Below the pieces are notes generated by a model. It was not told the origin of the DNA. It was given only the letters and a program-made list of their open reading frames with translations, and ran no database searches. A DNA stretch of 56,380 nt from a virus. A program made the position numbers and the translations under genes. The DNA is taken from IMG/VR virus record IMGVR_UViG_3300027708_000088, positions 1-56,380 of that record; one strand, written 5' to 3'. This document shows positions 1 through 53,239 of the stretch, piece after piece. Positions within the stretch are counted from its first letter, which is position 1, and each line of letters begins with the position of its first letter.

Positions 1-1
1 G

Positions 2-141
2 GTCTTCTTGCGACGATACCAGTTTTTGCGAAATTGTGCCCTCTGCCTGCGGAAACACACTCATGTGATCCGCGGAAGGGCCAAAAGTGCTGGTAGGGGT
101 GTTTTTGCGCCGCGTATTTGCTGGCCGCGTTCCGATCATTG
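2..141 (+). CDS. C-terminal part of a small ORF that may continue from the window end
   Basis: This frame is open from the first complete codon to a TGA at 139-141. If the last base is joined to the first, it continues the frame that starts with ATG at 56370 and gives a 50-residue basic product containing a CALC motif (two Cys spaced CxxC) followed by RKH. I do not recognise a family. Open length alone is weak evidence, and the reading depends on the window being circularly closed. Confidence 0.3.
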
Positions 142-177
142 AGTGACTCCGATCTCCGCTAACCCGACGTGTGTGAA

Positions 178-221
178 CCCGGCGGGGGAGACAGGAGCTA
201 ACTGAGCAAGACCCCGCCGGG
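178..221 (+). terminator. GC-rich hairpin upstream of the Dps-like gene
   Basis: Positions 178-187 and 212-221 form a perfect 10-bp stem (CCCGGCGGGG with its complement) around a 24-base loop. No strong U tract follows, so it could be a factor-assisted terminator of the early region or a structural element in the leader of the next gene. Confidence 0.45.
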
Positions 222-258
222 GTACAGCGATTTTATCAGATGTTGAGAGGTTTTCATT

Positions 259-714
259 GTGGACGATGACCAGCAGTATTACCTGGGCCTGCGGAGTGCT
301 TTTGCCTCTGAGTATGCGTTTCTGATTAAGGCGCAGCGGTTCCATTGGAATGTTGAGGGCCGGCATTTCTACAGTGATCACGGCTTGTTCCAAACCATCT
401 ATGAGGAGGTTCAGGAGATCATTGATGATTTCGCTGAGAATCTTCGTAAGCTCCAGTTGTTTGCGCCGGCCAGCTTGGGCGAGTTGAGCATGTTGAGCAT
501 GATCTCGGATGCCAGTGACGGTTTGGTGGCTGAGGAGATGCTCCAGGTTCTTTTGGATGACAGCGACAAGATGGTGAGTATTTTCCGCATGATGTTTGAG
601 ATTGCGGAGGAGCATGGGGATCACGGGTTGTCTAATTTCTTGGCTGATCGCCAGGACGCGCATGCGAAGCATTCTTGGATGTTGCGGTCGAGTTTGAAGG
701 TGCTTAGTGGGTAG
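259..714 (+). CDS. Dps-like ferritin-family protein
   Basis: The 151-residue product resembles Dps (DNA-protecting ferritin-like) proteins, which form dodecamers that oxidise and store iron and may bind DNA. The N-terminal helix carries the HWNVEG motif, and H29, H41, D56 and E60 have exactly the spacing (12, 15, 4) of the intersubunit ferroxidase ligands of the family. A second helical half follows to the end. The length is close to the short end of the family. The GTG start is preceded by GAGAGG at 245-250. The stop overlaps the next gene by 8 bases, so it is coupled to the small terminase gene. A Dps gene at the head of a packaging operon is unusual. Its role in the phage is inference: protecting packaged or host DNA from oxidative damage, or a structural use of the fold. 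Confidence 0.85.
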   Translation: MDDDQQYYLGLRSAFASEYAFLIKAQRFHWNVEGRHFYSDHGLFQTIYEEVQEIIDDFAENLRKLQLFAPASLGELSMLSMISDASDGLVAEEMLQVLLDDSDKMVSIFRMMFEIAEEHGDHGLSNFLADRQDAHAKHSWMLRSSLKVLSG

Positions 715-1201
715 GCGTGGCCCGAAACCGGGGCCAAACCATCTGAAAGTGATCGCAGGGGTGGCTGAATCGCGTCTAAACCGGGACGAGCCTGTTCCTT
801 CTAAGGCGGCGGCTAGTTTGGCACCGGATTCGATGTCGGAGGGCGCTCGGAAGGTGTGGGATCGCCTCGCTCCCGATCTGGTCGATAAGGGCATGCTCAC
901 TGAGTGGGATGTGGATACGTTTGTTGTGTTTTGCGAGGCTGTGGCTACTTACCATGAGTGTCGGAAGATGCTGGAGGAGTCTCCTTCTGAGCATGGGAAG
1001 TATTTGGAGCGTGGTTCGGCCGGCGGTCTGATTAAAAGCCCGTATTGGCAGATTATGCGTGATTGTTCGTCGGTGATGGCTCAGTTTTCGTCGCGGTTTG
1101 GGATGACGCCTGGTGATCGGGCAAGTTTGAAGGCTGGCGTGGAGTTGGGTGGTTCGGATTCGGGTGGGCCTTCGCGTGGCGCTGAGAGGATTTTATCGTG
1201 A
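707..1201 (+). CDS. terS: Terminase small subunit (P27 family)
   Basis: The 164-residue product starts MGRRGPKPGP and then has the layout of phage terminase small subunits of the P27 type: a basic N-terminal tail, a helical core (LAPDLVDKGMLTEWDVDTF is typical) and a C-terminal segment with SPYWQIMRD and FGMTPGDRASL. Such proteins recognise the packaging site and recruit the large subunit to DNA. The GTG start lies inside the end of the Dps-like gene, and the 3' end overlaps the next gene by 4 bases. The large subunit gene is about 4.3 kb downstream instead of adjacent. Confidence 0.9.
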   Translation: MGRRGPKPGPNHLKVIAGVAESRLNRDEPVPSKAAASLAPDSMSEGARKVWDRLAPDLVDKGMLTEWDVDTFVVFCEAVATYHECRKMLEESPSEHGKYLERGSAGGLIKSPYWQIMRDCSSVMAQFSSRFGMTPGDRASLKAGVELGGSDSGGPSRGAERILS

Positions 1202-1521
1202 CTTATGTGTGTGCGCCGCCGGCTGAGCGGGTGATTCCGGTGACGCGCGGGTGTGATCGGTCTTTTACGATTCAGCGCCTGAATTCTGGCGGCTCGGCGG
1301 TTAGTTTCGATGCGGGTTCGTCTGTCTATATGTGGATTGATATTGATCGTGCTGCGCCGACGCGGGTGGATGCTGTTGTGTCGGGGTCTAATGCTGCTTT
1401 TGTGTTGGATTATGCGGTGTGTGATTTGGTTCGGACCGGTACTCGTTGGCGCATTGTGTTGAAGGTTGGTTCTTCTGAGCTTGCGTTGTTGGTGGGACGG
1501 TTTGAGAGGTATGACGGCTGA
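1198..1521 (+). CDS. LtfC-like beta-sandwich tail protein
   Basis: This 107-residue protein is rich in short beta strands (for example AAFVLDYAVCDLV and TRWRIVLKV) and resembles the small LtfC/p132/Gp6-type beta-sandwich proteins that lie beside tail fibre genes in actinobacteriophages. It overlaps the small terminase stop by 4 bases (GTGA) and shares base 1521 with the start of the following fibre gene, which points to co-translation. A role in fibre assembly or attachment is inferred from position. Confidence 0.55.
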   Translation: MTYVCAPPAERVIPVTRGCDRSFTIQRLNSGGSAVSFDAGSSVYMWIDIDRAAPTRVDAVVSGSNAAFVLDYAVCDLVRTGTRWRIVLKVGSSELALLVGRFERYDG

Positions 1522-4500
1522 TGGGTGATCAGAATTTTGTGATTAGTCAGGGTGATTTCATTTCGGTTGTGGTGTCTGATCCTGTTCCGGTTTCTGTGTC
1601 GGTGGCTGATCCGGTTTCGGTGGGGTTTGTTGGTTTGTTGGGGCCGACCGGGGCCACTGGTGCGAAGGGTGACACGGGCGCGGTTGGCCCTGCTGGCACT
1701 ACGTTATGGAGTGGCTTGAGTGGTGTTCCTGCTGCGTTAGTTGCTGGGTCGAATGTTGCTAATGGTTATGCCGGCCTCGACAGTGCTGGTTTGGTTCCTG
1801 CCGGGGTGTTGCCGTCGTATGTCGATGACGTGCTGGAGTACGCCAACTTTGCGGGTTTCCCGTCGCCGGGTGAGATTGGCAAGATTTATGTCGATAAGGC
1901 GACGGGGAAGATTCATCGTTGGACTGGCAGTGTGTATGTCGAGATCAGCCCTAGTCCTGGTTCTACAGATTCGGTGGCTGAGGGCAGCACTAACTTGTAT
2001 TACACAAATGCTAGGGCTTCTGCTGCGGCCCCGGTGCAGTCTGTTGCGGGGCGTACTGGCGCGGTGGTTGTGGCTAAGGCTGATGTGGGCTTGGGCAATG
2101 TGGATAACACGTCGGATGCGTCTAAGGATGCTGCTGCGACGGCGCTGGCGAATAAAACGTCAATCACGTCTACGGGTGCGGTGACTGGTTCGACGTTAGT
2201 TTCAACGGTGGCGCAGGGTACTGCCCCTCTGACGGTCACTTCTACGACGGTTGTGCCTAACTTGAATGCGACTGCGGTAGGCGGTTTGGTTCCTACCATT
2301 TCTGCTACTGCTTACGCTATCGGTGCGCGGGATGCTAGTGCGAACCTGACGGCTAATGCTTTCACGTCTACTGTGGCGACTGGTACGGCACCTATGACTG
2401 TCGCATCGACTACTCGCGTCAACAATCTCAACGCTACCTATCTCAGCGGTAATGGTGCAGACGTGTCTGGTACAGCCATATATAGCGTCCCGACGCGAGA
2501 TGGTAACGCTAACGTCGCTGCTCGCAGTTTCATTTCAGGTTTCACTAGCACGGTGACATCTGCTACAGCCGTTACGCTTACTTCCAGTAACGCGACTACG
2601 GGGAACGCTATTCAGGAGTTCACCGGGAGTACGGCTCAGACTGTTAATCTTCCAAGTGCAAGTGTTGTTGCAGGTCAGAAATACTTGATCCTCAATAACA
2701 GCACTGCTGCTGTGACCATACAATCTTCTTCTGCTGCGACGGTTTTAACTTTAGTCGCTGGGGCAACAGCCGAATTGACCGCGCTAGTCGCTACTCCTAC
2801 TACGGCTGCAAACTGGAAAGTAGCAAACGGTGAAGCGTCGAGGCTTAATGGGCTAACTGATACAGCCGCGTCGACGGCCAATACGATTGCGCGGCGGGAC
2901 GGCAACTCGCTTCTTTTCGCAAAAAACTTTGTTCCGCAGTTTTTAACCACGGCAACAGCCGCAGGTACTACTACTCTGCTGGTTAATAGTAATCCAATTC
3001 AGGAGTTCACCGGCACGTTAGCGCAGACTGTTGTTCTGCCAACTACGTCGGTATCGTCTGGGCAGACGTACACGATTATAAATAACAGTACGGGTTTGGT
3101 GACGGTTCAGTCTTCTGCTGCTGCAACAATCGTGATTCTTGCCGCTGGCACTCAGGCAATGTTTACTGCTTTATCTAATAACCCGACTACTGCGGCGCAT
3201 TGGAAGAGCAGTTATGCGGTTGATCCGGTGGCAGCGCAAACGCTCAGCAACAAAGTTTTAACTACCCCAACCCTTTCGGGCGGGTATGCCACCGTAGCTT
3301 ACGGCGCAGGTCTGACCTACTACAACACCCAAGATCAAACCACCAACACCGAATATGTCGGCACTGGGTTCACTGGAAATACCTGGGTGTTTAACTCACA
3401 GGCCACGGGGACTGGGACGCGCCGTGCGCTCCAATTCCAATCCGGTGCATCACTGTTTGTTGACGCTTTTAACTCTACCAGTGGGACGGTGAGGGTAACT
3501 AATACTACCTCTGGTGTGGGAGTTGCAGCGTTCGGTGTTGCATCTACTTACACCAACTCGTCGGGCCTGACCTATAGCGTGTTGCTGAATCCGACAATGA
3601 GCCAAACGGGCACGGGCGGCTACACAGCATTGTTGATTAACCCTACTGAAACGTCCAACACGGGTACTGGGTCTAAGTTGCTGATTGATGCCCAGTTGGC
3701 GGGTTCATCTAAGTTCAGTGTCTCTAATGCTGGCACCGTATCGGTCGGTGGCACAATTGAGCTTGGTCATGCGAGCGATACCACTTTGTCTCGTTCGGCG
3801 GCGGGTGCGCTTGCCGTCGAGGGCAACGTAGTGGAAACGCAAAACTTCAAGAACGTGGCTAACGGGTATTGTGGCTTGGACGCCAATGGCACCGTGGCTG
3901 CTAACCAACTGCCGTCCTATGTAGATGACGTTCTTGAATACGCGAACCTAGCTGGGTTTCCAGCGACGGGCACTGCCGGCAAAATCTTTGTCGCTATCGA
4001 CACAGGCAAGGTGTACCGCTGGTCTGGAACTGTTTACATTGAAATCAGTCCCAGTCCCGGTAGCACTGACGGTGTTACGGAGGGTTCGACAAATCTGTAT
4101 CACACCACTGCGCGTGCTGCTGCTGCGGCTCCGGTGCAGTCGGTGGCCGGTAAGACTGGAACCGTTTCACTGGTCAAGGCTGATGTTGGCTTAGGGAGCG
4201 TCGATAACACGTCTGACGCCGACAAGCCTGTTTCCACCGCTACTAGCACTGCTCTATCAGGTAAAGAGCCTACGATTACGGCAGGCACTACGGCCCAGTA
4301 TTATCGCGGCGATAAATCTTTTCAAACCCTTGATAAGACGGCTGTCGGATTGGGCAGCGTAGATAACACTGCCGATTCTTCCAAGGCTGTTTTGTCTGCA
4401 ACTAAGCTGGCTACAGCTAGGTCTATTAACGGTGTGTCTTTCGATGGCACGGCTGACATTGTGGTGTCTAAGCCGCGTGTAGGAACCACAACATCTAATA

Positions 4501-4790
4501 CGGCAATCTCTATAGATTCCGCTCTCTACGATCAATTCAATGTTTTGGCTCTTGCAGCTAATACCACGATCACGATTACTGGTACGCCTAATGATGGTCA
4601 AAAGTTGCTAGTTCGTATTAAGTCTGCCGCTGTTCAGACTTTGACGTTTGATAGTGCAAAGTTCCAATCTTCGGGTGTAGCTGTGCTGCCGGCTCAGACG
4701 GTTGCGGGGAAGACTCATCTTGTTGGTTTCATTTATGACAGTGCGGTAGGCAAGTTTGTGTGTGTGGCCTCTGATAGTTCGGGGTACTAA
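1521..4790 (+). CDS. Large tail fibre / minor tail protein with collagen-like and duplicated modules
   Basis: This 1089-residue protein has a short N-terminal part, a collagen-like Gly-X-Y run at residues ~36-56 (GPTGATGAKGDTGAVGPAG) and then repeated modules. A ~125-residue module with a YVDDVLEYAN core and SPSPGST, ending in KADVGLGNVDNTSD, occurs at residues ~77-203 and again at ~776-901. A second repeated unit (IQEFTG...AQTV...NNST) occurs at ~350-435 and ~480-565. VGLGxVDNT repeats are typical of phage fibre shafts. It probably forms a trimeric host-contact fibre. The ATG start overlaps the previous stop. It sits between the two terminase genes, not with the main tail cluster. Confidence 0.85.
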   Translation: MGDQNFVISQGDFISVVVSDPVPVSVSVADPVSVGFVGLLGPTGATGAKGDTGAVGPAGTTLWSGLSGVPAALVAGSNVANGYAGLDSAGLVPAGVLPSYVDDVLEYANFAGFPSPGEIGKIYVDKATGKIHRWTGSVYVEISPSPGSTDSVAEGSTNLYYTNARASAAAPVQSVAGRTGAVVVAKADVGLGNVDNTSDASKDAAATALANKTSITSTGAVTGSTLVSTVAQGTAPLTVTSTTVVPNLNATAVGGLVPTISATAYAIGARDASANLTANAFTSTVATGTAPMTVASTTRVNNLNATYLSGNGADVSGTAIYSVPTRDGNANVAARSFISGFTSTVTSATAVTLTSSNATTGNAIQEFTGSTAQTVNLPSASVVAGQKYLILNNSTAAVTIQSSSAATVLTLVAGATAELTALVATPTTAANWKVANGEASRLNGLTDTAASTANTIARRDGNSLLFAKNFVPQFLTTATAAGTTTLLVNSNPIQEFTGTLAQTVVLPTTSVSSGQTYTIINNSTGLVTVQSSAAATIVILAAGTQAMFTALSNNPTTAAHWKSSYAVDPVAAQTLSNKVLTTPTLSGGYATVAYGAGLTYYNTQDQTTNTEYVGTGFTGNTWVFNSQATGTGTRRALQFQSGASLFVDAFNSTSGTVRVTNTTSGVGVAAFGVASTYTNSSGLTYSVLLNPTMSQTGTGGYTALLINPTETSNTGTGSKLLIDAQLAGSSKFSVSNAGTVSVGGTIELGHASDTTLSRSAAGALAVEGNVVETQNFKNVANGYCGLDANGTVAANQLPSYVDDVLEYANLAGFPATGTAGKIFVAIDTGKVYRWSGTVYIEISPSPGSTDGVTEGSTNLYHTTARAAAAAPVQSVAGKTGTVSLVKADVGLGSVDNTSDADKPVSTATSTALSGKEPTITAGTTAQYYRGDKSFQTLDKTAVGLGSVDNTADSSKAVLSATKLATARSINGVSFDGTADIVVSKPRVGTTTSNTAISIDSALYDQFNVLALAANTTITITGTPNDGQKLLVRIKSAAVQTLTFDSAKFQSSGVAVLPAQTVAGKTHLVGFIYDSAVGKFVCVASDSSGY

Positions 4791-5363
4791 ATGCCTAGTG
4801 AACTTACAACGGTTTCTACGGCTGGGGCGTATACCTATTCCATTCCCGATTGGGCGCTATACATTGACGTTGTAGTTCTCGGCGGCGGCAAGGGTGGTCG
4901 AAGTGGCGGCACACTGCTACGGAATGGTGGTGGCGGCGGCAAGGGGTCTTACGGTTCTGCCACGCTGACTCGCGGCGTAAATGTTGGGTTCGGTGTCACG
5001 TCTATTACTGGGATTGTGGGTTCTGGTAGTGCCGGCGGCACAGGTGGAAACCTCAATGCTTCTGCTAGCGGAACTTCATCGACAGCTATTGCTACTGGCT
5101 GGGCCGGAATTAGCGGGGCGGGTGGCACTGCCGATTTCTCTGGCACCAGTAATGACGGGGAAGCTGCCGGGAATTTGATCTTTAATGGACAAACCTATGT
5201 TGGCGGTGCCGCCGCGACAACTTTAGGTCAGGCCGGTAACGCTCCTGGTGGTGGTGGCGCTGGCGGTCAATTCGGCAATAACAACGGCGGTGCAGGCGGC
5301 GTCGGGCGGGTTTGGATTCTTGCCTACGGTGATCGGCCTAACCAGTTTTTCCAAATGTTCTAA
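4791..5363 (+). CDS. Glycine-rich tail protein (adhesin-type domain)
   Basis: The 190-residue product starts with a short beta region (STAGAYTYSIPDWA) followed by VVVLGGGKGG and long Gly-rich loops with poly-Gly runs, the pattern of glycine-rich receptor-binding domains in phage tail proteins. It starts directly after the stop of the large fibre gene. The C-terminal ~185 residues of the minor tail protein at 27871-29307 are a close copy, with long stretches of near-identical DNA (for example around 4960-5000 and 28932-28972), so the domain has been duplicated within the genome. Confidence 0.75.
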   Translation: MPSELTTVSTAGAYTYSIPDWALYIDVVVLGGGKGGRSGGTLLRNGGGGGKGSYGSATLTRGVNVGFGVTSITGIVGSGSAGGTGGNLNASASGTSSTAIATGWAGISGAGGTADFSGTSNDGEAAGNLIFNGQTYVGGAAATTLGQAGNAPGGGGAGGQFGNNNGGAGGVGRVWILAYGDRPNQFFQMF

Positions 5364-5469
5364 CGGCTACCTGCCGTAACTGACTTGTCTGAAACAATTT
5401 TTGGCGGTACTACCGGCCTTGGTCAGGAAGCTATGTCTTAATTGGCGCATACGAGGCGAGGAGAGGGGT

Positions 5470-7134
5470 GTGCTTGTGGAGGTTTGCGGGTACACCTTTG
5501 ATAACGTCGAGTGCGCCGGCAAGGGCGATCATCTGTGCGTTCCCCGCGCGGATCACGCCCAGGCGTTCTTTGAGGAATGTTTGGTGCATACGAAGGGTAA
5601 GTATGCGCGGCGTAAGTTTGTGTTGGCTGATTGGCAGCGCGAAGAGATCATTCGCCCGTTGTTTGGCACGGTTCGGTGGTCTGAAGAGTCTGACGAATAC
5701 AAACGGGCTTTTGAAGTGTGCTGGATAGAGTTGGCTCGCAAGAATGGCAAGAGTGAGCTTTTGGCTGGCATCATGCTTTATCTGCTTGTTGCGGACAATG
5801 AGGAATCTGCGGAGATTTACGGTGTGGCCCGTGATCGTAACCAGGCTTCGCTGGCGTTTGATGTGGCGGCGCAAATGGTTCGGTTCTCGCCGGCCCTAGC
5901 GAAACGGTTGAAGGTTACTGACTATAAGAAGCGAATCTATGACACTAAGACCAATTCTTTTTATTCGGTGATTGCGGCTGATGCTCAAAGTGCTTTGGGT
6001 TCCAACCCGTCTGGTGTTGGTGCCGACGAAATCTTGGCTTGGCGTGGCCGCGAGATGTGGGATTCCCTTCGCACTGGTATGGGTTCTGGTGCGCGGCGAC
6101 AACCGATGATGGTTGCTTGCACCACTGCGGGTAACGATATGGAGGGTTTCGCCGGCCAAATGCACCAGGAGATGCAGCGGATCGCTGACGATCCTGCGCG
6201 CTCACCGCACACCTTTGTGTACCTGCGAAATACCCCTATGGACGCAGACCCTTTTGATGAGAGTCACTGGTCACACGCGAACCCTGCTTTGGGCGATTTC
6301 CTTCGCGTTGAGGCAATGCGCGAACAGGCTCTTGAGGCCCGTAACAACCCTTTGGCCGAGATGGGTTTTAGGCAGTTCCGTTTGAATCAGTGGCAGGTTT
6401 CGACGGTTCGGTGGATGCGTATGGATTTGTGGGATCAGTCGGCCGGCACGATCTTTAAGTCGAACCGTGATGCTTTGGATGCGTTCGCTGGCCGCGAATG
6501 CTGGTTCGGCTTGGACTTGGCTGCCCGTATGGACTTGACCTCTCTGTGCTACTTGTTCCCCAACGGCGACGGTTCAGTTGATGTGGTGTGGCGGCATTGG
6601 GCACCCGAGGCGGCTGTGGCGAAGCTCGACAAGCTGACTAACGGGAAAGCCACCCAGTTCGTCAAGGATGGCTGGTTGACGGTCACTGAGGGCGACGTAC
6701 TGGATTTCCAGCGGGTGTATGCCGACATTGCTAAAGACGCTCAACGGTTTGTGTTTTTGGGCGGTGACGCGGACCAGTGGTCAAGTGATCCGGTGATTCA
6801 GGAGATTGAGTCTCGGACGTATGTAAGTGAGATTTTTGCGTACAAGAATGATTTCTCGCATATGTCGGATGGCATGCACAGAATCTTTGAGATGGTTGTT
6901 GGCGGCAGGTTCCTGCATCACGGTAATCCTTTGGCGCGCTGGTGTTTTGATTCTTGCGAGGCCAGGGTGGCTAGTTATGACCCTAATTTGATTCGACCGG
7001 ACAAACCGGATCGCAATGTTGCGTCCAAGCGCATCGATGCCGTGCCTTCTGCGGTGATGGCCGTGAATGCTTGGGTTACTCGCGGTAGCGACCTTGAGTC
7101 GGTTTACGAAACCGAGGACATTCTGATCCTCTAA
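5470..7134 (+). CDS. terL: Terminase large subunit
   Basis: This is the packaging ATPase and nuclease that translocates DNA into the prohead and cuts it. The ATPase half shows the Walker A-like ARKNGKSE motif and a Walker B-like GVGADEIL segment. The nuclease half shows acidic positions in FGLDLAARMD, GGDADQW and KRIDAV. The open frame reaches up to a TTG at 5401, but GTG at 5470 is preferred because AGGAG at 5459-5463 lies 6 bases upstream; GTG at 5476 is also possible. From 5470 the product is 554 residues, normal for the family. The ~100 bases before it hold no gene that I can see. Confidence 0.93.
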   Translation: MLVEVCGYTFDNVECAGKGDHLCVPRADHAQAFFEECLVHTKGKYARRKFVLADWQREEIIRPLFGTVRWSEESDEYKRAFEVCWIELARKNGKSELLAGIMLYLLVADNEESAEIYGVARDRNQASLAFDVAAQMVRFSPALAKRLKVTDYKKRIYDTKTNSFYSVIAADAQSALGSNPSGVGADEILAWRGREMWDSLRTGMGSGARRQPMMVACTTAGNDMEGFAGQMHQEMQRIADDPARSPHTFVYLRNTPMDADPFDESHWSHANPALGDFLRVEAMREQALEARNNPLAEMGFRQFRLNQWQVSTVRWMRMDLWDQSAGTIFKSNRDALDAFAGRECWFGLDLAARMDLTSLCYLFPNGDGSVDVVWRHWAPEAAVAKLDKLTNGKATQFVKDGWLTVTEGDVLDFQRVYADIAKDAQRFVFLGGDADQWSSDPVIQEIESRTYVSEIFAYKNDFSHMSDGMHRIFEMVVGGRFLHHGNPLARWCFDSCEARVASYDPNLIRPDKPDRNVASKRIDAVPSAVMAVNAWVTRGSDLESVYETEDILIL

Positions 7135-7143
7135 GGAAGGCTC

Positions 7144-7368
7144 ATGCGTAAAAAGGACTTATTGAAGGGCTATGTGGGTAGGAAGTTGCATGTAACTCCC
7201 ACTACTGGCCCCGCTTTTACTGGCGTGTTGACCGCTGTTGCCGATGCGAATCTTGCGTTTACGGATGTAGTGGTGGTGTCGAGCGGCGAGTCTGCCGCCG
7301 GCCATTTACTGATTGGACGGGACAACATTGCCTATCTACAGGTGTTGGTGACTGATGCTGCTAACTAA
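7144..7368 (+). CDS. Small beta-barrel-like protein between terminase and portal
   Basis: The 74-residue product has a predicted all-beta layout: a basic N-terminal helix (MRKKDLLKGYVGRK) and five short strands with GPAFTGVLTAV and DNIAYLQVLV, which recalls Sm-like small barrels. I cannot name a family with certainty. AAGGAAGG at 7133-7140 gives a good ribosome binding site. The 3' end overlaps the portal gene by 14 bases. A role in head morphogenesis is suggested by position only. Confidence 0.55.
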   Translation: MRKKDLLKGYVGRKLHVTPTTGPAFTGVLTAVADANLAFTDVVVVSSGESAAGHLLIGRDNIAYLQVLVTDAAN

Positions 7369-8896
7369 CGGCATTTCGGTTGCGCCGCAGGCTCTTGCGG
7401 AGTTGGCCCCACAGATTTCAAGTGCATACTACTACCCTGAGACTCTCGGTTTGGAGTTGGAGAAAAAGTTCGCCCTGTATGGGGAGATTTATTCTCAGCA
7501 GCCTTGGGTTCGGACTGTGATCGATAAGCGTGCGAACGCTGTTGCTCGGCTGCCTGTCCAGGTGTGGGACATTGACGGTGATACTCGCAAGATGGATTCC
7601 CGTTCGCAGTATTCGCGGTTGGTTGCGGACCCGTGCGAGTACATGGACAACTACAGTTTTTGGCAGTGGATTCAGACCACTATCGACATTTACGGCGAGA
7701 CTTACCTAGCGTTGGTCAAGGACGGCAATGGGATGCCGGTGTCGATGATGCCGATGCATCCGACGCGGGTGGCGGTGAAACGTAATCCGCAGGACGGCAA
7801 GTACGAGTATTTCTTCCAGGCCGGCAGCGGTATCGGCACTGAGCTTGTGCGGTTTCAGCAAGAGGATGTTGTTCCGTTTAAGTTGTTCAATCCTCGTAAA
7901 CTTGAGCGCGGCCTGTCGCGTTTGGAATCTTTGCGTTCGACGTTGTATTCGGAGGATTCCAGTCGCAACGCTACTGCGTCGATGTGGGCGAATTCTGGTC
8001 GGCCAAACATTGTGATGTCTACGGAGAAGAAGCTGGGGCCGGATGGCCGTAAACGTCTGATTGAGGCGTTCAATCAAGCTCACCAGGGTTCGGGGAACGC
8101 GGGTAAGACCCTTGTCCTTGAGGATGGGGTGTCGGCTACTCAGTTCCAGTTGACGGCTACGGATATGCAGTTCATTGAGGGCCGGAAGCTGAATCAGGTG
8201 GAGGTGTGTGGTGTTTTCGATATTGCGCCGACTCTGGTGGGCATTTTGGATCATGCCACCTACTCCAATGTCAGCGAGCAGATCCGAGGGTTTTACAGAG
8301 ACAGCATGAGTGGGCCTCTCCAGTTTGTGGAGTCGGTGTTTAACAAGCATGTGGGTTCGTATTGGCGGCGTAAGAACGAGATGCGTTTCGCTCTTGATGA
8401 GGTGCTGCGCGGCGATCCTGAGAAGCGCGGTGAGACTGTGCAGAAGGCTGTTAACTCTGGCGTGATGACGCCTAATGAGGGCCGCGATTTCATGGGTTTG
8501 AATCGGTCGGATAATCCTTTGGCCGATAGCTTGTTCGCTAACTCTGCGTTGCAGGAGTTGGGTAAGCCGTCTGAGAGGATCACGTTGGCTGGTCAGGTTT
8601 CGGGTGAAACGCCGGATCATGTGGCGGTTGTGCCGCCGGCTACTCCGGTCGCTTCTCACGATAATAGTCCTCCGACGATGATCCCTGCGGTGAAGCCGCC
8701 GAGGGCTTTGGCTGCGGTTGCGCCGTCGAAGCATTTACGGGCGATTAAGGGTGAACTTGGTCGAGGACGTTCGCAAGACGAAATTAAACGGTTCGCGTTG
8801 AGTTTGGCCGATAAGGCTAGTGACGCGCAGGAATTGATCGACATCTTGAGTGCTGTGGAGATGGCGCTCGGTGAGCATGCCAGGAAGGCTATGTAA
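7355..8896 (+). CDS. Portal protein
   Basis: The 513-residue product has the features of HK97-type portal proteins, which form the dodecameric ring at the capsid vertex through which DNA enters. Visible landmarks include WVRTVIDKRANAVARLPVQVW near the N-terminus (the typical helical wing start), RGLSRLESLR, and the C-terminal FDIAPTLVGILDHATYSN segment. The tail after residue ~420 is Pro/Ala-rich and then charged. It overlaps the preceding gene by 14 bases, and its TAA overlaps the protease ATG. Confidence 0.9.
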   Translation: MLLTNGISVAPQALAELAPQISSAYYYPETLGLELEKKFALYGEIYSQQPWVRTVIDKRANAVARLPVQVWDIDGDTRKMDSRSQYSRLVADPCEYMDNYSFWQWIQTTIDIYGETYLALVKDGNGMPVSMMPMHPTRVAVKRNPQDGKYEYFFQAGSGIGTELVRFQQEDVVPFKLFNPRKLERGLSRLESLRSTLYSEDSSRNATASMWANSGRPNIVMSTEKKLGPDGRKRLIEAFNQAHQGSGNAGKTLVLEDGVSATQFQLTATDMQFIEGRKLNQVEVCGVFDIAPTLVGILDHATYSNVSEQIRGFYRDSMSGPLQFVESVFNKHVGSYWRRKNEMRFALDEVLRGDPEKRGETVQKAVNSGVMTPNEGRDFMGLNRSDNPLADSLFANSALQELGKPSERITLAGQVSGETPDHVAVVPPATPVASHDNSPPTMIPAVKPPRALAAVAPSKHLRAIKGELGRGRSQDEIKRFALSLADKASDAQELIDILSAVEMALGEHARKAM

Positions 8897-9843
8897 TGAA
8901 CATTGAACTCAAGCAGGTAGTCGCTACCGTTGAGTCCGACATTGAAGAGAGTGAAGAGTTTCCGTATGGCGGTTTCGTCGCGGTGGCTTCCACTCCTTCG
9001 TTGGATCGTGATGGCGACAAGCTGGAGAGCGGCGAGTGGATCACTCCGCTGCCGGATCACATCACGATTGATATTGACCATGAGATGAGTGTGCGTGGCA
9101 CGGTGGGTTCTGCTCGCCCGTATTTCAGCGAGGACGGCCAGTTGATGATTGAGGCCCGTTTCGCTTCTACGGCGCAGGCCCAGGAGACTCGCACGCTGAT
9201 CCGCGAGGGACATGTTCGCACGGTGTCTGTCGCGTTTCTGACTGATAAGTCGAAGAAGTCGGGTGAGCCTCGCCGCGAGCTACTGAATGTGGGCATTGTG
9301 GCGATCCCGTCTAACCGTGACGCCATGATTTTGTCGTCCAAGACGGCGGCAATCAAAGATTGTCAGTGTTGGGATGGTTACGAGCGGGTGCCCGGTACTA
9401 CGCCGTGCGCTCCTGGTTCATGCCGAAAGTGTGACGCCGCTTCTAAGATGGCTGCTCTTGTCACTACTAAGGCCGGCGGCGATGCTTCGCTGATTCAGGC
9501 GATCCATGATGCTGCTTGTCATCTTGGCGCTGGATGTTGCGCTATGGATGATCCTGCTGAGGAAGCCGCTGAGGAAGCCGCCATGAAGTCGGTGGATGCT
9601 AAAGCGATCCCCGGCGATATCACTATTGATGAGTTCAAGGCTGCCTTGGATTCGTTTTTTCAGACCACGCCACCCGATGTGTCACCCGTTGAGTCGCCCG
9701 TTGAAGAGGCCGCTGTAGAGCCTGTTGAGGTTTCTGCACCCGTCTTGGATGCCGCCGATGATGCCGCTGATGCCGTGGCACAGAGGGCACGCCTGATGGC
9801 GATGAGTGTCCTCGCTGATTCTGTTCTCGCCTCTGAGAACTGA
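8896..9843 (+). CDS. Prohead (capsid maturation) protease, S78-like
   Basis: The N-terminal ~150 residues match HK97-family prohead proteases, which trim the scaffold part of capsid subunits. Likely catalytic residues are H62 in IDIDHE and S111 in VRTVSVAF. After the protease domain there is a Cys-rich segment (residues ~155-177) with CQC, then CAPGSC and RKC, that could bind a metal. The C-terminal ~100 residues are Ala/Glu/Asp-rich with Pro, as expected for a scaffold-like tail. The gene follows the portal with an overlap of one base. Confidence 0.85.
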   Translation: MNIELKQVVATVESDIEESEEFPYGGFVAVASTPSLDRDGDKLESGEWITPLPDHITIDIDHEMSVRGTVGSARPYFSEDGQLMIEARFASTAQAQETRTLIREGHVRTVSVAFLTDKSKKSGEPRRELLNVGIVAIPSNRDAMILSSKTAAIKDCQCWDGYERVPGTTPCAPGSCRKCDAASKMAALVTTKAGGDASLIQAIHDAACHLGAGCCAMDDPAEEAAEEAAMKSVDAKAIPGDITIDEFKAALDSFFQTTPPDVSPVESPVEEAAVEPVEVSAPVLDAADDAADAVAQRARLMAMSVLADSVLASEN

Positions 9844-9881
9844 ATCCTTTTCTAACAACCTAAATAGAAGGAAAAGTTATT

Positions 9882-11333
9882 ATGCCGAATACGGCACAGT
9901 TGACTGCGCGTGGGCGTGAAATCGCGCAGTCCATCAAAGATATTGATGCTCGGGATGATCTCTCGGCGTCACAGAAGTCTGAGGCTCTTGACAAGATTCA
10001 GGGCGAGTGGGATTCGCACATGGTTGAGGTCAAGAATTCGGAGCGTGCCAGCGAGTTGGCCGCGAAGATGGGGCCGACTGGCGACACCCGTGAGATTGAC
10101 GGCGAGGTGATTGAGCTTCCGCAGATGGAGGTTCGGAACCTGGGCCAGATCAAGAAGCAGCTTGCCGCTAGCATGCTGACTCATCCTGAGTACCGCAAGG
10201 CTGTTAAGGCGCTGGATGATTTCAGCAAGCCCAAGAGCCAGTTCGACCTGAACTTCAGTGTCGATGTGAAGGATTCGACTTCCGCTAACAACATTATGGG
10301 TGAGGGTCTGTATGGCACCACCGGCCCGTCTGCTGTTGGTCAGAACCCGTTCCTGACGGGAGCTTTCGGTCCCGGTATCCTGCCGACCTTCCTGCCTGGA
10401 ATTGTGGAGCAGTTGTTCTTCAAGATCGGCATTGCCGATTTGATTTCTTCAATCCCGGTCACCACTCCTGATCTGTCTTACCTGACTGAGTCTGCTGCGG
10501 TGATGAACTCCGGTGCTGTTGCTGAGTCTGCCCTGTACCCGTTCTCCAGTGAGACTTTCTCCAGGGTGTATGAGCAAGTGGGGAAGATCGCGAACGCAGC
10601 GGTTTTGAGCGACGAAGCTATCAAGGACGCACCGCAACTGTTTTCGTTCTTGCAGGGTCGCCTGATTGAGGGCATTCAGCGGCAGGAAGAGGTGCAGATG
10701 CTGGCCGGCTCCGGTTACCCCGGCGTGAACGGTCTGCTTCAGCGGTCGAGCGGTTTCACCAAGCCTCAGACCATCACCGCCGTGTCGAACGTGAAGTTCC
10801 CGGCTACGGGCACTAACGGTGCTGGTGTTGTTCAGGCTAACGTGTCCTCGCTGACTTACGGTCGCAAGATCACTGGCGCTTCGACTGGCGTGTACCCGAC
10901 TGCCACTGCTATCGCTGAAGGCATCTTCGATGCGTTTGTTGATATTCAGTTGTCTGTTTTCAACACTCCTAACGCAATTGTGATGCACCCGAGGGATTTT
11001 GAGATTCTTAGGCTTGCCAAAGATTCCAGCGGTCAGTATCAAGGTGGTTCGTTCTTCGGTCTGGCTTACGGTCAGTCCGCGAACGCCGGCCAGTCTTTGT
11101 GGGGTGTGTCGGTTGTTACCACGCCGGCCGTTCCGCAGGGCACGATCTTGGTGGGCTACTTCGATAGCAGCACCATTCAGGCCGCGCGCCGCGAAGGTAT
11201 CTCCATGCAGATGACCAACTCCAATGGCACCGATTTCGTCAACGGCAACGTGACGATCCGCGCCGAGGAGCGCCTGGGTCTGCTTGTGTACCGTCCCAGC
11301 GCATTTGAGCTAATCCAGTTGGTGAACGGCTAA
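9882..11333 (+). CDS. Major capsid protein (HK97 fold)
   Basis: The 483-residue protein has the layout of HK97-type capsid subunits. It has a helical, charged N-terminal scaffold-like domain (to about residue 110-130), then a mature domain with FGPGILPTFLPGIVEQLFFKIGIADLIS, a typical P-domain (NAIVMHPRDFEILRLAKDSSG) and a C-terminal VTIRAEERLGLLVYRP strand. It probably assembles the icosahedral shell after cleavage by the upstream protease. AGAAGGAAAA gives a strong ribosome binding site in an AT-rich leader that resembles the leader of the major tail protein gene. Confidence 0.93.
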   Translation: MPNTAQLTARGREIAQSIKDIDARDDLSASQKSEALDKIQGEWDSHMVEVKNSERASELAAKMGPTGDTREIDGEVIELPQMEVRNLGQIKKQLAASMLTHPEYRKAVKALDDFSKPKSQFDLNFSVDVKDSTSANNIMGEGLYGTTGPSAVGQNPFLTGAFGPGILPTFLPGIVEQLFFKIGIADLISSIPVTTPDLSYLTESAAVMNSGAVAESALYPFSSETFSRVYEQVGKIANAAVLSDEAIKDAPQLFSFLQGRLIEGIQRQEEVQMLAGSGYPGVNGLLQRSSGFTKPQTITAVSNVKFPATGTNGAGVVQANVSSLTYGRKITGASTGVYPTATAIAEGIFDAFVDIQLSVFNTPNAIVMHPRDFEILRLAKDSSGQYQGGSFFGLAYGQSANAGQSLWGVSVVTTPAVPQGTILVGYFDSSTIQAARREGISMQMTNSNGTDFVNGNVTIRAEERLGLLVYRPSAFELIQLVNG

Positions 11334-11361
11334 TAGCCAAAGCCATGAATAAGGTTTCGGT

Positions 11362-11390
11362 CTTGGGGTCGGCGTCACGTCGGCCCCAAG
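11362..11390 (+). terminator. Hairpin after the major capsid gene
   Basis: The stretch folds on itself almost completely: CTTGGGG pairs with CCCCAAG, and the inner bases continue the stem with two G-U pairs to a 3-base loop around 11375-11377. No U tract follows. It could be a partial terminator or an RNA-stabilising structure that raises capsid mRNA over downstream connector mRNA. Confidence 0.6.
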
Positions 11391-11418
11391 GCTGACCCTG
11401 TTGGAAAGGTGGTTCCTA

Positions 11419-11637
11419 GTGACCAACACGGTAACCAATATTAGTGTGATTGATGAGTATCATCAGTCGATCATTCAGCCGCGTGTCTTTGCTCAAGTTT
11501 TTGGTATCGGTGTTACGCCGACGCCGGATGAGGTTGAAGAGGACGTTGTTGAGGATGATGGTGATACGAAGGCGAAGGTTGTTCGCCGGCCCAAAGCTGC
11601 GAAGCCCGAGGGCACTGAGGGTGTCGAAACGAAATGA
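11419..11637 (+). CDS. Small protein between capsid and connector genes
   Basis: The 72-residue product has a short beta-like N-terminus (TNTVTNISVID) and an acidic Glu/Asp/Val-rich middle followed by a basic Lys/Arg/Pro tail. GTG at 11419 is chosen because GGAAAGGTGG lies just upstream; a TTG at 11401 would be in frame. It overlaps the next gene by 4 bases. I do not recognise a family; low-complexity proteins at this place are common in related phages. Confidence 0.6.
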   Translation: MTNTVTNISVIDEYHQSIIQPRVFAQVFGIGVTPTPDEVEEDVVEDDGDTKAKVVRRPKAAKPEGTEGVETK

Positions 11638-12215
11638 CGAGACTCGCTGAGGCATTGGATGTTTTCGTAAACAACAATTACGGTGACGATCAGGTTGAGT
11701 TGGCGCTTGATTGGGCCACGTCTGCGATCCAAGGTTATACGGGTCGCACGTTTGATCTGGTGACTGGTGATGTGGCGGTGCTTGATCCACATGAGGGTAA
11801 AGCGATGCTGCCTAATTTTCCGGTTGTGCAGATCACCAATGTCTCGGCGTGGCTTCCTGCTTCAAACAATTACGGCATGGCGTGGACCGATATCACTAAC
11901 TATGCGTTCGTCCCTGAGACTGGTTTGGTGTACAACACCACTGGCCTTCCCGGCACTAGCTGGCATGCCGGCCCATCATGGCCTTGGCTTCCAGGCTCGC
12001 TGCGGGTCACTTACGATCACGGGTATACGGCTGCACCACAGCCGTTGAGGGACGTGTGCATTCGGTTGGCGCAGCAGTACTTGGACAATCCCACCTTGAC
12101 GATGAATGCCCGTGTGGGTGAGGTCGAGGCGCGTTACAGCGGCTCTTACGGCTTGGTGTTCTCGCATCACGATAAGGCGATCTTGGATCGTTACTGTGAT
12201 GTGGGTGTGTCGTGA
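11634..12215 (+). CDS. Head-to-tail adaptor (connector)
   Basis: The 193-residue protein resembles gp6/gp15-type adaptors that bind under the portal. It has an N-terminal helical part (ALDWATSAIQGYTGRTFDLV), a strand region with FPVVQITNVSAW, the SLRVTYDHGY motif and a C-terminal helical part (LRDVCIRLAQQYLDNP). The middle holds an aromatic-rich loop. Its start overlaps the preceding gene by 4 bases and its end overlaps the stopper gene by 4 bases. Confidence 0.75.
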   Translation: MTRLAEALDVFVNNNYGDDQVELALDWATSAIQGYTGRTFDLVTGDVAVLDPHEGKAMLPNFPVVQITNVSAWLPASNNYGMAWTDITNYAFVPETGLVYNTTGLPGTSWHAGPSWPWLPGSLRVTYDHGYTAAPQPLRDVCIRLAQQYLDNPTLTMNARVGEVEARYSGSYGLVFSHHDKAILDRYCDVGVS

Positions 12216-33441: not shown

Positions 33442-33513
33442 GCCTCCGTAGCTCAGTGGTAGAGCTATCGACTTTTAATCGACAGGTCGCAGGTTCGATC
33501 CCTGCCGGGGGCA
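33442..33513 (+). tRNA. tRNA-Lys (anticodon UUU)
   Basis: A full cloverleaf can be drawn. The acceptor stem is 33442-33448 with 33506-33512 (one G-U pair), the D stem is GCTC/GAGC, the anticodon loop is CTTTTAA with TTT as anticodon, and the T arm is GCAGG-TTCGATC-CCTGC with discriminator A at 33513. The first anticodon-stem pair is an A-C mismatch. CCA is not encoded. It ends one base before the stop codon of the convergent minus-strand operon. Confidence 0.92.
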
Positions 33514-33514
33514 C

Positions 33515-33991
33515 CTACTGTTCGTCGCGCTGCCAAAAGGTTGACCACCGGACTTGTCTGTAAATATTGCCGTCGAAGTCCTCAGTTAGGCGAGTTTCCA
33601 AGCCTAGGCCAAGTTTTTGATACAGAACTTCGGACAGGTGCTGCGACAGGGTCACATCTTCGTCGTCATAGTCGAGGGCATCGTAGATGATCGCGGCAAT
33701 GCGGTTGCGGAGAACATCCCTATCCATCTCGTCCTTAATGCGATCAATACGCTCACGGTTACCGGGCCGCTTCCTACGTTGCCCGTCAAGGTCAAGCATT
33801 GTCGGACTTTGCGGCAAATCCACGCGCAACCCTGCGGCAGACTCACAACCATAACCGTCAAGATATTTGTCGTGGCTCTCGCGGTGCCGCACCACAAACT
33901 GCTGCACCTGATCACATGTGCAGTCCGGTGAATGGTGGAAGTCGAAGGTGCAGCGACATTCGGCGCAGTAGTAGGAATGTGGATCGGTCAT
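33515..33991 (-). CDS. Last gene of the minus-strand operon, zinc-binding-like
   Basis: The 158-residue product has an N-terminal Cys/His cluster (YYCAECRC and HHSPDCTC) that could bind zinc, a Pro-containing middle and a charged helical C-terminal half (RIDRIKDEMDRDVLRNRI, DYDDEDVTLSQHLSEVLY). I do not recognise a family. Its start overlaps the stop of the preceding gene by 4 bases (ATGA). It terminates next to the tRNA gene on the other strand. Confidence 0.65.
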   Translation of the reverse strand: MTDPHSYYCAECRCTFDFHHSPDCTCDQVQQFVVRHRESHDKYLDGYGCESAAGLRVDLPQSPTMLDLDGQRRKRPGNRERIDRIKDEMDRDVLRNRIAAIIYDALDYDDEDVTLSQHLSEVLYQKLGLGLETRLTEDFDGNIYRQVRWSTFWQRDEQ

Positions 33992-38318: not shown

Positions 38319-38495
38319 ATGGCTCGCGCGAAGAAGCTCAAAGAGGGAACCCGCATAGTTCGACCACGGGATGTAGCCACTGTGGTGAGCGATATGGGCG
38401 ATTGGGTGTCGGTCAGGTTGTCGAACGGTGAGTACGAGAATTGGACGCGATACAAGGATGCCGATGGCCCCGGTTTCCTTGAGGTTTCGGAGTGA
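38319..38495 (+). CDS. 58-residue protein coupled to the integrase
   Basis: The short product begins MARAKKLKEGTRIVRP and has a small beta-barrel-like core (VATVVSDMGDWVSVRLSNGE). AAGGGG lies upstream, and the TGA overlaps the integrase GTG by 4 bases. It could be an accessory DNA-binding or directionality factor, but no family is recognised. Confidence 0.65.
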   Translation: MARAKKLKEGTRIVRPRDVATVVSDMGDWVSVRLSNGEYENWTRYKDADGPGFLEVSE

Positions 38496-39730
38496 CCTCG
38501 CAGCGCAGGGCGACGGGTACGGGTGGGCTGTCGAGGCGCGCGGACGGGCTGTGGATTGGCAGCGTCACCTTGCCTACAACGGATGGCCGGCAACGCCGCA
38601 AAACAGTTTCGTCTAGGGATCGCAATGAGGCGATGCTGAAGTTGCGCCAGCTTCACCAGGACGTGGCTAAAGGCAAGGTGACGTATGCGCCGTCAATGAC
38701 TTTGGGTGATTGGCTGGATTATTGGTTGGAGCGGATTGTGCGTCCGAATGTGCGTCCGAGAACCTACACCTCGTATGAACAGGCGGTGCGTCTGTATATC
38801 AAGCCGCATGTTGGTGGTGTGCGGTTGGACAGGCTGACGCCAGCCCATGTGCGGGACATGGTGTTGGCGGTGCAGAAGGTTTCGACTCGTAATGGGCAGA
38901 AGGCGCATCAGACGTTACGGCGCGCGTTGCAGGCTGCTATTGGTGATGGTGTGGTGGATCGTAATGTCGCCGCTGTGGTGTCTCGGCCGGCGCATATCGG
39001 TTCCGATATAGAACCGTTTGAACCGGATCAGGTGCGCCATATCCTGCGGACATCACTTCAGCATGATATTCATCCGACTCGCTGGCTGGCCGCGTTTCTG
39101 ACGGGTTTGCGCCAAGGGGAGTTGTTGGGGATGGAGTGGGATCGGGTCGATTTGGATGCTGAGGTGATGAATGTTCAGTGGCAGTTGCAGTTGTTGCAGA
39201 AAGTTCATGGGTGTGGTGATTCGGTTGATGGGGTGTATCGGTGTTTGAAGGTGCGGCCTGGTTGGTGTCCGCAGGCGCGGTGGGATCATCCGGCGGGGTT
39301 TCGGGTTCGGGAGTGTCATCGGTCTCTGTGTTGGACTGCGCCTAAGTCTGTGGCTCGGGAGCGGTTTGATGTGCCGTTGATTCCGGCGATGGTGGCGGCG
39401 TTGCGGGTTTTGCGGGAGCAGGACACGGGGCCGAATCCTCACGGGCTGGTGTGGCATCACGCCGATGGCCGGCCGGTGTCTCCGCGCGAGGACAATGATT
39501 TGTGGGCGATGCTGTTGAAGGTGTCGGGTATTCCTCATGTGAAGCAGCATGCTGCGCGGCACACAACGATCAGTTTGTTGCAGGAGCGTGGTGTGGATGA
39601 GCCGACGCGGATGGCGATTACGGGCCATTCCAGTGTCGCGGCGCACCGTGGCTATGTGCATGTGTCGGCTCGGCAGGCCGCTGACGCCGCCAATGTGCTG
39701 ACCGACTTGGCGTTTGCTGACGAGGTTTAG
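38492..39730 (+). CDS. int: Tyrosine integrase
   Basis: The 412-residue recombinase has an N-terminal arm-binding region, a core-binding SAM-like domain (~70-165) and a catalytic domain with R207 (TGLRQGE), K285, H353 and R356 (HAARHTT), H379 (GHSS) and nucleophile Y388 (HRGYVHV). An insert at ~240-280 carries five cysteines (241, 251, 259, 275, 280) and may bind a metal; it is not part of the usual core. The enzyme integrates and excises the phage genome and shows the phage is temperate. GTG start coupled to the small gene upstream. Confidence 0.95.
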   Translation: MTSQRRATGTGGLSRRADGLWIGSVTLPTTDGRQRRKTVSSRDRNEAMLKLRQLHQDVAKGKVTYAPSMTLGDWLDYWLERIVRPNVRPRTYTSYEQAVRLYIKPHVGGVRLDRLTPAHVRDMVLAVQKVSTRNGQKAHQTLRRALQAAIGDGVVDRNVAAVVSRPAHIGSDIEPFEPDQVRHILRTSLQHDIHPTRWLAAFLTGLRQGELLGMEWDRVDLDAEVMNVQWQLQLLQKVHGCGDSVDGVYRCLKVRPGWCPQARWDHPAGFRVRECHRSLCWTAPKSVARERFDVPLIPAMVAALRVLREQDTGPNPHGLVWHHADGRPVSPREDNDLWAMLLKVSGIPHVKQHAARHTTISLLQERGVDEPTRMAITGHSSVAAHRGYVHVSARQAADAANVLTDLAFADEV

Positions 39731-52249: not shown

Positions 52250-52281
52250 GACCCCAGCAAGGACAAAGGGGGTCCATTTTT
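52250..52281 (+). terminator. Intrinsic terminator after ssb
   Basis: GACCCC (52250-52255) pairs with GGGGTC (52269-52274) around a 13-base loop and is followed by CATTTTT. The stretch before it (52203-52249) is AT-rich with no gene. It separates the core early operon from the following cassette. Confidence 0.75.
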
Positions 52282-52306
52282 GTTGTCCAATTTAGGAAAC
52301 CAAACT

Positions 52307-53239
52307 TTGAAACACATAGTGATGTTTAGCGGTGGCATCGGTTCTTGGATGACAGCGAAACGGGTGATTGCCAAGCACGGCACAGCCGATACGATTCTCC
52401 TTTTTGCGGATGTGAAAGGGGAGGGGCGGTGCCTGACTTGTGATCACAGGTTTAGCCTGCACATCAATGGGCGTGGCCCTTGCGATGTGAAAGACGACGA
52501 TGACAAATATTGCGGATGCACTTCGTTTGTGGATAATCCGTTTGTTGGTGAGCATCCAGACACCTATAGGTTTATTGATGATGCTGCCGCCAAGTTACAA
52601 GCAGAACTTGTCACAGTCATGGACCCCAAGAAGCGGGACATTTGGGGTGTTTATGAAAGTAGGAGATATTTAGGTAATTCTCGCCAAGCTAATTGCTCCA
52701 TCGAATTGAAGCAGAAGCCGTGCCTTGCTTGGCTAAAGGACAATGTGAAGCCGGATGAGGGAAAGGTATACGTCGGCATTGACTGGACTGAGTCTCATCG
52801 ATTGCCGGCAGTAGAGGCCGCGTATGCAAAATGGGGTTACAAGGCAGAAGCGCCTTTGTGCAATCGTCCCTATCTAGATAAAGACGAGATGATTCAGGCC
52901 GCGATAGCAGACGGGTTGACCCCTCCTTCTGCATATGCAAAGGGTTATCCACATAACAATTGTTCCGGTTTTTGCGTGCGTGCCGGCAAGAGTCAGTTCA
53001 AGATGCTGCTGGAAGAGAATCGTGAGGCGTACATGTTCCATGAAGGACAAGAGCTAAAACTTCGGGAATATTTAGGCAAGCCGGTGACGATTTTGACTGA
53101 GATGAATAAGGGCGAAAAGGTCAACTTAACCCTTCGCAGTTTTCGTGAGCGTCAGGAATCTCAAAAATCTTTGTTTGACGATGATGAATTCGATTTTGGC
53201 GGTTGCGGTTGCTTTTCACAATTTGAGGACGATGAGTGA
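52307..53239 (+). CDS. PP-loop protein related to PAPS reductase
   Basis: The 310-residue product begins with HIVMFSGGIGSW, the PP-loop of adenine-nucleotide alpha-hydrolases such as phosphoadenylylsulfate reductases. It has a Cys cluster early (CLTC, then CDV and CGC), CSIELKQKPC in the middle and NCSGFCVRAGKSQF later, which could hold a metal or Fe-S cluster. Family members reduce or transfer sulfur, or modify nucleic acids; the substrate here is unknown. TTG at 52307 is preferred for the short spacing of the PP-loop; TTG at 52280 is an alternative that overlaps the terminator. Confidence 0.8.
   Translation: MKHIVMFSGGIGSWMTAKRVIAKHGTADTILLFADVKGEGRCLTCDHRFSLHINGRGPCDVKDDDDKYCGCTSFVDNPFVGEHPDTYRFIDDAAAKLQAELVTVMDPKKRDIWGVYESRRYLGNSRQANCSIELKQKPCLAWLKDNVKPDEGKVYVGIDWTESHRLPAVEAAYAKWGYKAEAPLCNRPYLDKDEMIQAAIADGLTPPSAYAKGYPHNNCSGFCVRAGKSQFKMLLEENREAYMFHEGQELKLREYLGKPVTILTEMNKGEKVNLTLRSFRERQESQKSLFDDDEFDFGGCGCFSQFEDDE

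Follow-up and report, generated by a model that had tools for sequence, protein, structure and literature searches.

The first gene of the packaging operon of an uncultured phage is, as judged from its sequence and predicted structure, an intact Dps gene of the iron-oxidising cage protein family, and it is probably a protective passenger gene rather than a part of the packaging machine. This gene (dps) occupies positions 259 to 714, on the plus strand, of a 56,380-bp virus contig from IMG/VR, the full length of which is referred to below as the window. It begins with a GTG start codon and encodes a Dps-like mini-ferritin of 151 amino acids belonging to a virus-type clade. Dps proteins are small iron-oxidising cage proteins that normally guard bacteria against peroxide damage.

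Earlier reports of phage Dps mostly consisted of a count of domains or an isolated annotation. It now emerges as a virus-type lineage under purifying selection that is spread over unrelated uncultured phages and that, in one actinophage lineage, lies in the late operon as cargo preceding the terminase. If these proteins are active, phages would invest in iron and peroxide control while their genomes are being packaged, and the effect of iron and reactive oxygen species (ROS) on phage yield would become directly testable.

Genome and organization of the late operon

A DNA-level search with positions 1 to 12000 of the window returned no named phage relatives. Its large terminase subunit (TerL) is 72% identical to that of Mycobacterium Kostyavirus phages and its major capsid protein about 60%, and on sequence grounds the window represents an uncultured actinophage-like genome. 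Positions 1 to 258 comprise the left genome end and the leader of the late/packaging operon, in which no gene is called. In its first bases the window resembles the left genome end of Mycobacterium phage Phrux, and the homologous left ends of Phrux and of contig G002 (locus L067) begin at approximately the same distance from gene 1. A second IMG/VR record, whose sample of origin may be the same or a related one, has the same starting base and is identical at 8710 of 8711 bases. The start of the window is most likely the physical left end of the genome.

With 258 bases between it and this end, dps is the first gene, and direct reading of the sequence places a Shine-Dalgarno-like GAGAGG (245 to 250) 8 nt 5' of its start codon. 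It is followed by the gene for a P27-family terminase small subunit (terS, positions 707 to 1201), whose GTG start at 707 lies inside the 3' end of dps, the TAG stop codon of which is at 712 to 714, resulting in an 8-nt overlap (GTGGGTAG, 707 to 714). The coordinates thus confirm the claim of an earlier, sequence-only reading of this DNA that dps heads the packaging operon, and the overlap would be compatible with the translational coupling to terS that was also claimed. Downstream follow genes encoding an LtfC-like beta-sandwich protein (1198 to 1521), a tail-fibre-like protein of 1089 amino acids together with a glycine-rich minor tail protein (1521 to 5363), TerL (5401 to 7134), and the portal, head maturation protease and major capsid proteins (7355 to 11333), all on the plus strand and in the same late operon direction. 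The region between terS and terL is an unusual place for tail genes.

Elsewhere, the window carries endolysins, including a phrog_102 protein, an exonuclease and a DNA methyltransferase. A tRNA-Lys gene is located at 33442 to 33515, while a tyrosine integrase gene at 38492 to 39730 indicates that the phage is likely to be temperate. At 52280 to 53239 a PAPS reductase-like gene (phrog_424) is found, a type that has been counted among phage ROS-defence genes (PMC6802176).

Predicted structure and ferroxidase residues of the Dps-like protein

The matches of the dps product to Ferritin/Dps profiles and sequences are well above chance, since it matches Pfam Ferritin at E=8.8e-19, passing the cutoff, phrog_3636 at 7.6e-29, and 48 distinct PDB sequences, of which Dps PA0962 of Pseudomonas aeruginosa (8ff9) is the top hit (4.9e-20). 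The AlphaFold (AF2) monomer model (mean pLDDT 91, pTM 0.88) has helices at residues 3-31, 37-64, 84-88, 91-118 and 122-150, i.e., the four long helices and short BC helix of a ferritin-like bundle. A Foldseek search of the PDB with this model returned top matches that are all Dps proteins (TM 0.80-0.89), with PA0962 as the best solved match (TM 0.87). Pfam, the AF2 fold and Foldseek therefore agree with the earlier proposal of a Dps-like ferritin, and the structure comparison that had been suggested as a check on it gave the four-helix fold, with a TM of 0.85 to Listeria Dps.

The four residues previously singled out as ferroxidase ligands are intact and exactly spaced (H29-(12)-H41-(15)-D56-(4)-E60, conforming to the motif H-x11-H-x14-D-x3-E), and in the alignment H29, W30, H41, D56 and E60 correspond to H51, W52, H63, D78 and E82 of E. 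coli Dps. All five residues are unvarying in 136 of 136 aligned viral Dps sequences. To this is added a fifth ligand position (D67 in E. coli), absent from the earlier account, which is Q45 in the window protein; the 136 viral rows have E, G, A, D or Q at this position, and the cellular rows mostly E. R131, H135 and H138 are invariant in viral-type Dps while being variable among cellular rows. The median dN/dS over 1949 pairs of viral Dps genes is 0.14, a value which points to purifying selection on the viral family. Because of the ferroxidase residues, the predicted fold and this selection, the window Dps is probably a catalytically competent mini-ferritin, although Q45 at the fifth ligand position would count against an active ferroxidase. 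Alignment with Dps proteins of known structure would place the ferroxidase site between two subunits, the model itself being that of a monomer.

A virus-type Dps family

Two IMG/VR searches for Dps relatives yielded 59 and 208 sequences. The viral sequences have a median identity of 58% to the window Dps, as compared to a best identity of 37% for a cellular row and 32% for a named phage. When 84,980 species genomes of bacteria and archaea were scanned with a search that reaches close relatives only, just two relatives were confirmed, sharing 36% and 33% identity. The 83-row tree contains a branch, with 100/100 support and present in all 200 bootstrap trees, that has all 45 viral rows on one side, bearing out the possibility raised earlier that phage copies form their own clade. 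The tree also groups the window with L067 and L083 (100/98), yet it has long branches and few columns, and the split between viral and cellular rows alone is relied upon. No row of the tree is known to be an actinobacterial Dps, and the distance to those proteins is given by PDB profile scores: the viral Dps profile scores 1.5e-29 against P. aeruginosa Dps versus 3e-4 against actinobacterial Dps such as 1uvh. The sequence comparisons thus place the window Dps in a virus-only clade that is common in uncultured phages and far from both cellular Dps and the Dps of named phages.

These data also bear on whether the gene was recently captured from a host, or whether the contig is an assembly chimera with bacterial DNA. 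Dps genes are mostly bacterial, which would suit such an origin; it is nevertheless highly improbable, given the 100/100 separation from cellular Dps, a viral profile that is far nearer to P. aeruginosa Dps (1.5e-29) than to 1uvh (3e-4), and just the two relatives at 36% and 33% in a scan of about 85,000 genomes of bacteria and archaea. Contamination or chimerism is rejected on account of the second record that shares the left end (8710 of 8711 bases), the colinear contig G002 with the gene in the same place, and the viral clade.

A variable slot between leader hairpin and terS

The leader contains a hairpin at positions 178 to 221 of the plus strand, with arms at 178 to 187 (CCCGGCGGGG) and 212 to 221 and a loop that contains ACAGGAGCTAACTGA (191 to 205). 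Its 10-bp stem was obtained in 0 of 2000 shuffles, and a separate calculation gave the hairpin a z-score of -4.3. Hairpins with the loop ACAGGAGCTAACT and differing stem sequences occur upstream of terS in the window and in L064, L065, L066, L067 and L068, while L069 has the same architecture at this location with a divergent loop. The stems were compared singly, as MAFFT left them out of register; the L067 stem is 8 bp, and shuffles assessing perfect stems gave strong support in the window and L067, moderate support in L068 and L069, and weak support in L064-L066, whose stems are interrupted. A Rfam scan of the sequence matched tRNA only and not the leader hairpin, a search of named phages did not find the hairpin, and a scan of IMG/VR for the 15-base loop gave mostly chance matches without stems. 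A role in leader regulation or as an end-related site is possible for this candidate element.

A TerS search led to 16 loci, one of which is the duplicate record. Dps was found upstream of terS in this duplicate and in L067, on the 32-kb contig G002, which stays colinear with the window across the structural genes and whose Dps has 65% identity to that of the window; it was not found in the other 14 TerS loci, some of whose contigs end short upstream of terS. In L064, L065, L068 and L069 the hairpin loop lies 63-100 nt 5' of terS with no intervening gene, L066 has an unrelated ORF of 62 amino acids between hairpin and terS, where the window and L067 have dps, and Phrux has four other small ORFs before terS. 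The simplest reading of these arrangements, since several relatives without Dps have the same hairpin directly before terS, is that the interval from the leader hairpin to terS is a variable cargo slot, filled in the window by dps.

Genomic contexts of Dps in other phages

Most viral relatives of the window Dps were found in other phage types, where its frequent neighbours are redox and nucleotide-metabolism genes. In the L003-L059 group (e.g., L022 and L047), Dps lies upstream of DNA polymerase, a ferredoxin-like gene (phrog_3704) is present upstream of Dps, and a radical SAM gene is nearby; these could possibly constitute an iron-related gene set. In T4-like loci (L084-L158, e.g., L086, L131 and L143), genes near Dps often share a short N-terminal leader, M[KR][IL]x[ED]L[LF], which is carried by 178 of 603 genes within five genes of Dps versus 7 of 113 genes farther away, and a leader of this type is seen in 37 of 702 genes in other loci. 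Dps itself is without this leader in the T4-like loci, and the leader may be a capsid-targeting one.

In a third group, Dps is fused behind a domain of approximately 110 residues and is located beside PhoH and ribonucleotide reductase genes; phrog_2859 is the sole match of this L035-type N-terminal domain, for which no Pfam match was obtained. L216-L223 carry two Dps paralogs, one fused behind such a phrog_2859-like domain of ~110 residues by PhoH and one free-standing, the latter being located beside a collagen-like protein in L216 and L218. In contig G001 (L083), Dps is positioned between tail genes. BFVD holds Dps entries of uncultured Caudovirales (TM 0.82-0.90), and three of its entries, A0A6J7XDU5, A0A6J7WIS1 and A0A6J7WPK9, have Dps folds in proteins named prohead protease, where the fusion is by name only. 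The Dps genes of named phages adjoin NrdD, NrdG, thioredoxin, dCTP deaminase or ThyX.

Proposed function and alternatives

We consider it probable that the window Dps is a late-expressed cytoplasmic mini-ferritin which controls iron and peroxide and constitutes protective cargo in the variable slot, a reading favoured because of the ferroxidase site, the lack of a basic tail, the absence of Dps from relatives and the redox neighbours of the family. From gene order, dps would be expressed with the late genes. In the host cytoplasm, the product would form a dodecamer and would oxidise Fe(II) with H2O2 or O2 to a stored mineral. Fenton chemistry would thereby be limited in late infection, so that until lysis the cell, iron enzymes and the phage DNA already replicated would be protected.

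The first idea of the sequence-only reading had been that the protein condenses or protects phage DNA before or during packaging, and dps does adjoin and overlap terS, while phrog_3636 is labelled as a DNA binding protein. This label, however, is an annotation and not a test, and DNA condensation by the window Dps appears unlikely because the protein is acidic (pI 4.67, net charge -14), with the N-terminus VDDD and the C-terminus VLSG, and lacks at either end the basic tail that marks the DNA-binding, E. coli-like Dps subtype. Such a tail is not defining for Dps overall, as other Dps proteins, e.g., that of Listeria, are without one. Moreover, homologous terS, terL and portal genes are present in relatives that do not possess Dps, because of which the window Dps would be dispensable for packaging itself. 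The condensation proposal was therefore not upheld, and we regard it as very unlikely.

The late-operon position in the window and in G002, and that among tail genes in G001, would also fit a virion-associated Dps, built into the particle, attached to it or enclosed in the head, where it would protect packaged DNA or be delivered to the next host. The Dps domains in Caudovirales proteins named prohead protease (names only), the leader enriched near Dps in T4-like loci (178/603 vs 7/113 vs 37/702) and the free-standing Dps by collagen-like proteins in L216 and L218 point in the same direction. The window Dps, however, has no leader, tail or fusion, the family occurs in many unrelated positions, often by metabolic genes, in Lactobacillus phages Dps is encoded close to genes of DNA metabolism (PMC6669764), and a literature search on virion proteomes and Dps gave no match, all of which makes a place in the virion rather unlikely. 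A more specific form, in which a virus-evolved Dps is a late head- or tail-associated antioxidant, fused in some lineages to capsid-maturation proteins, whose cages, produced along with the structural genes and incorporated into virions or packed inside them, would shield the packaged DNA against iron and peroxide once outside the cell, is slightly more doubtful still. The 'DPs' of the 7-7-1 paper were rejected as Dps, as the passages concerned deal with capsid-lattice proteins. Iron withholding, by which the host or co-infecting phages would be starved or iron stored for use by ribonucleotide reductase and other phage enzymes, is suggested by the conserved ferroxidase residues and by the iron-dependent enzymes or ferredoxin that recur near Dps in other phages. 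Neither ribonucleotide reductase nor ferredoxin is present among the subset of window genes scanned, though, late expression would postdate most replication, and the chemistry overlaps that of cytoplasmic iron and peroxide control, the preferred explanation; we hold iron withholding to be improbable.

Comparison with known systems

The closest solved relative of the window Dps by both sequence (4.9e-20) and structure is the PA0962-type Dps (8ff9). The two agree in fold (TM 0.87) and in all four ferroxidase residues, but the PA0962-type protein is just 31-34% identical, falls outside the viral clade and differs from viral Dps, in which R131, H135 and H138 are invariant. Among phages, Salmonella phage 7-11, Cronobacter phage GAP52 and the Aeromonas LAh phages (where the product is called 'DNA-binding protein') also encode members of the Dps family with ferroxidase residues; these, however, have about 30% identity, lie outside the viral clade and are located in nucleotide-metabolism clusters. 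The Mycobacterium Kostyavirus (cluster E) phages, Phrux among them, share with the window a homologous left end and a homologous series of genes in the order terS-terL-portal-capsid, with TerL at 72%, yet have no Dps and carry four small hypothetical genes in the slot before terS.

ROS-defence genes, ferritin included, have been described in freshwater phages (Kavagutti et al. 2019, PMC6802176), and these ferritins and the Caudovirales Dps entries in BFVD are likewise phage-borne with similar folds, ROS defence having been proposed there. That study concerned domains across many phages, whereas the window gene occupies the first late slot and overlaps terS in an actinophage-like genome. Dps and manganese catalase have been reported in gut phages, with Dps read as oxidative-stress protection (Benler et al. 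2021, PMC8008677), and in a Lactobacillus phage Dps is encoded close to genes for DNA metabolism and replication (PMC6669764); the Dps of the gut phages ('Gratiaviridae' and 'Flandersviridae') and of the Lactobacillus phage are thus also phage-carried, with oxidative protection proposed, but belong to phage groups other than that of the window. Phage-borne Dps as ROS defence is therefore already published; the present analysis adds to it a clade of virus-type Dps and, in an actinophage, a Dps gene that occupies the slot of the first late gene.
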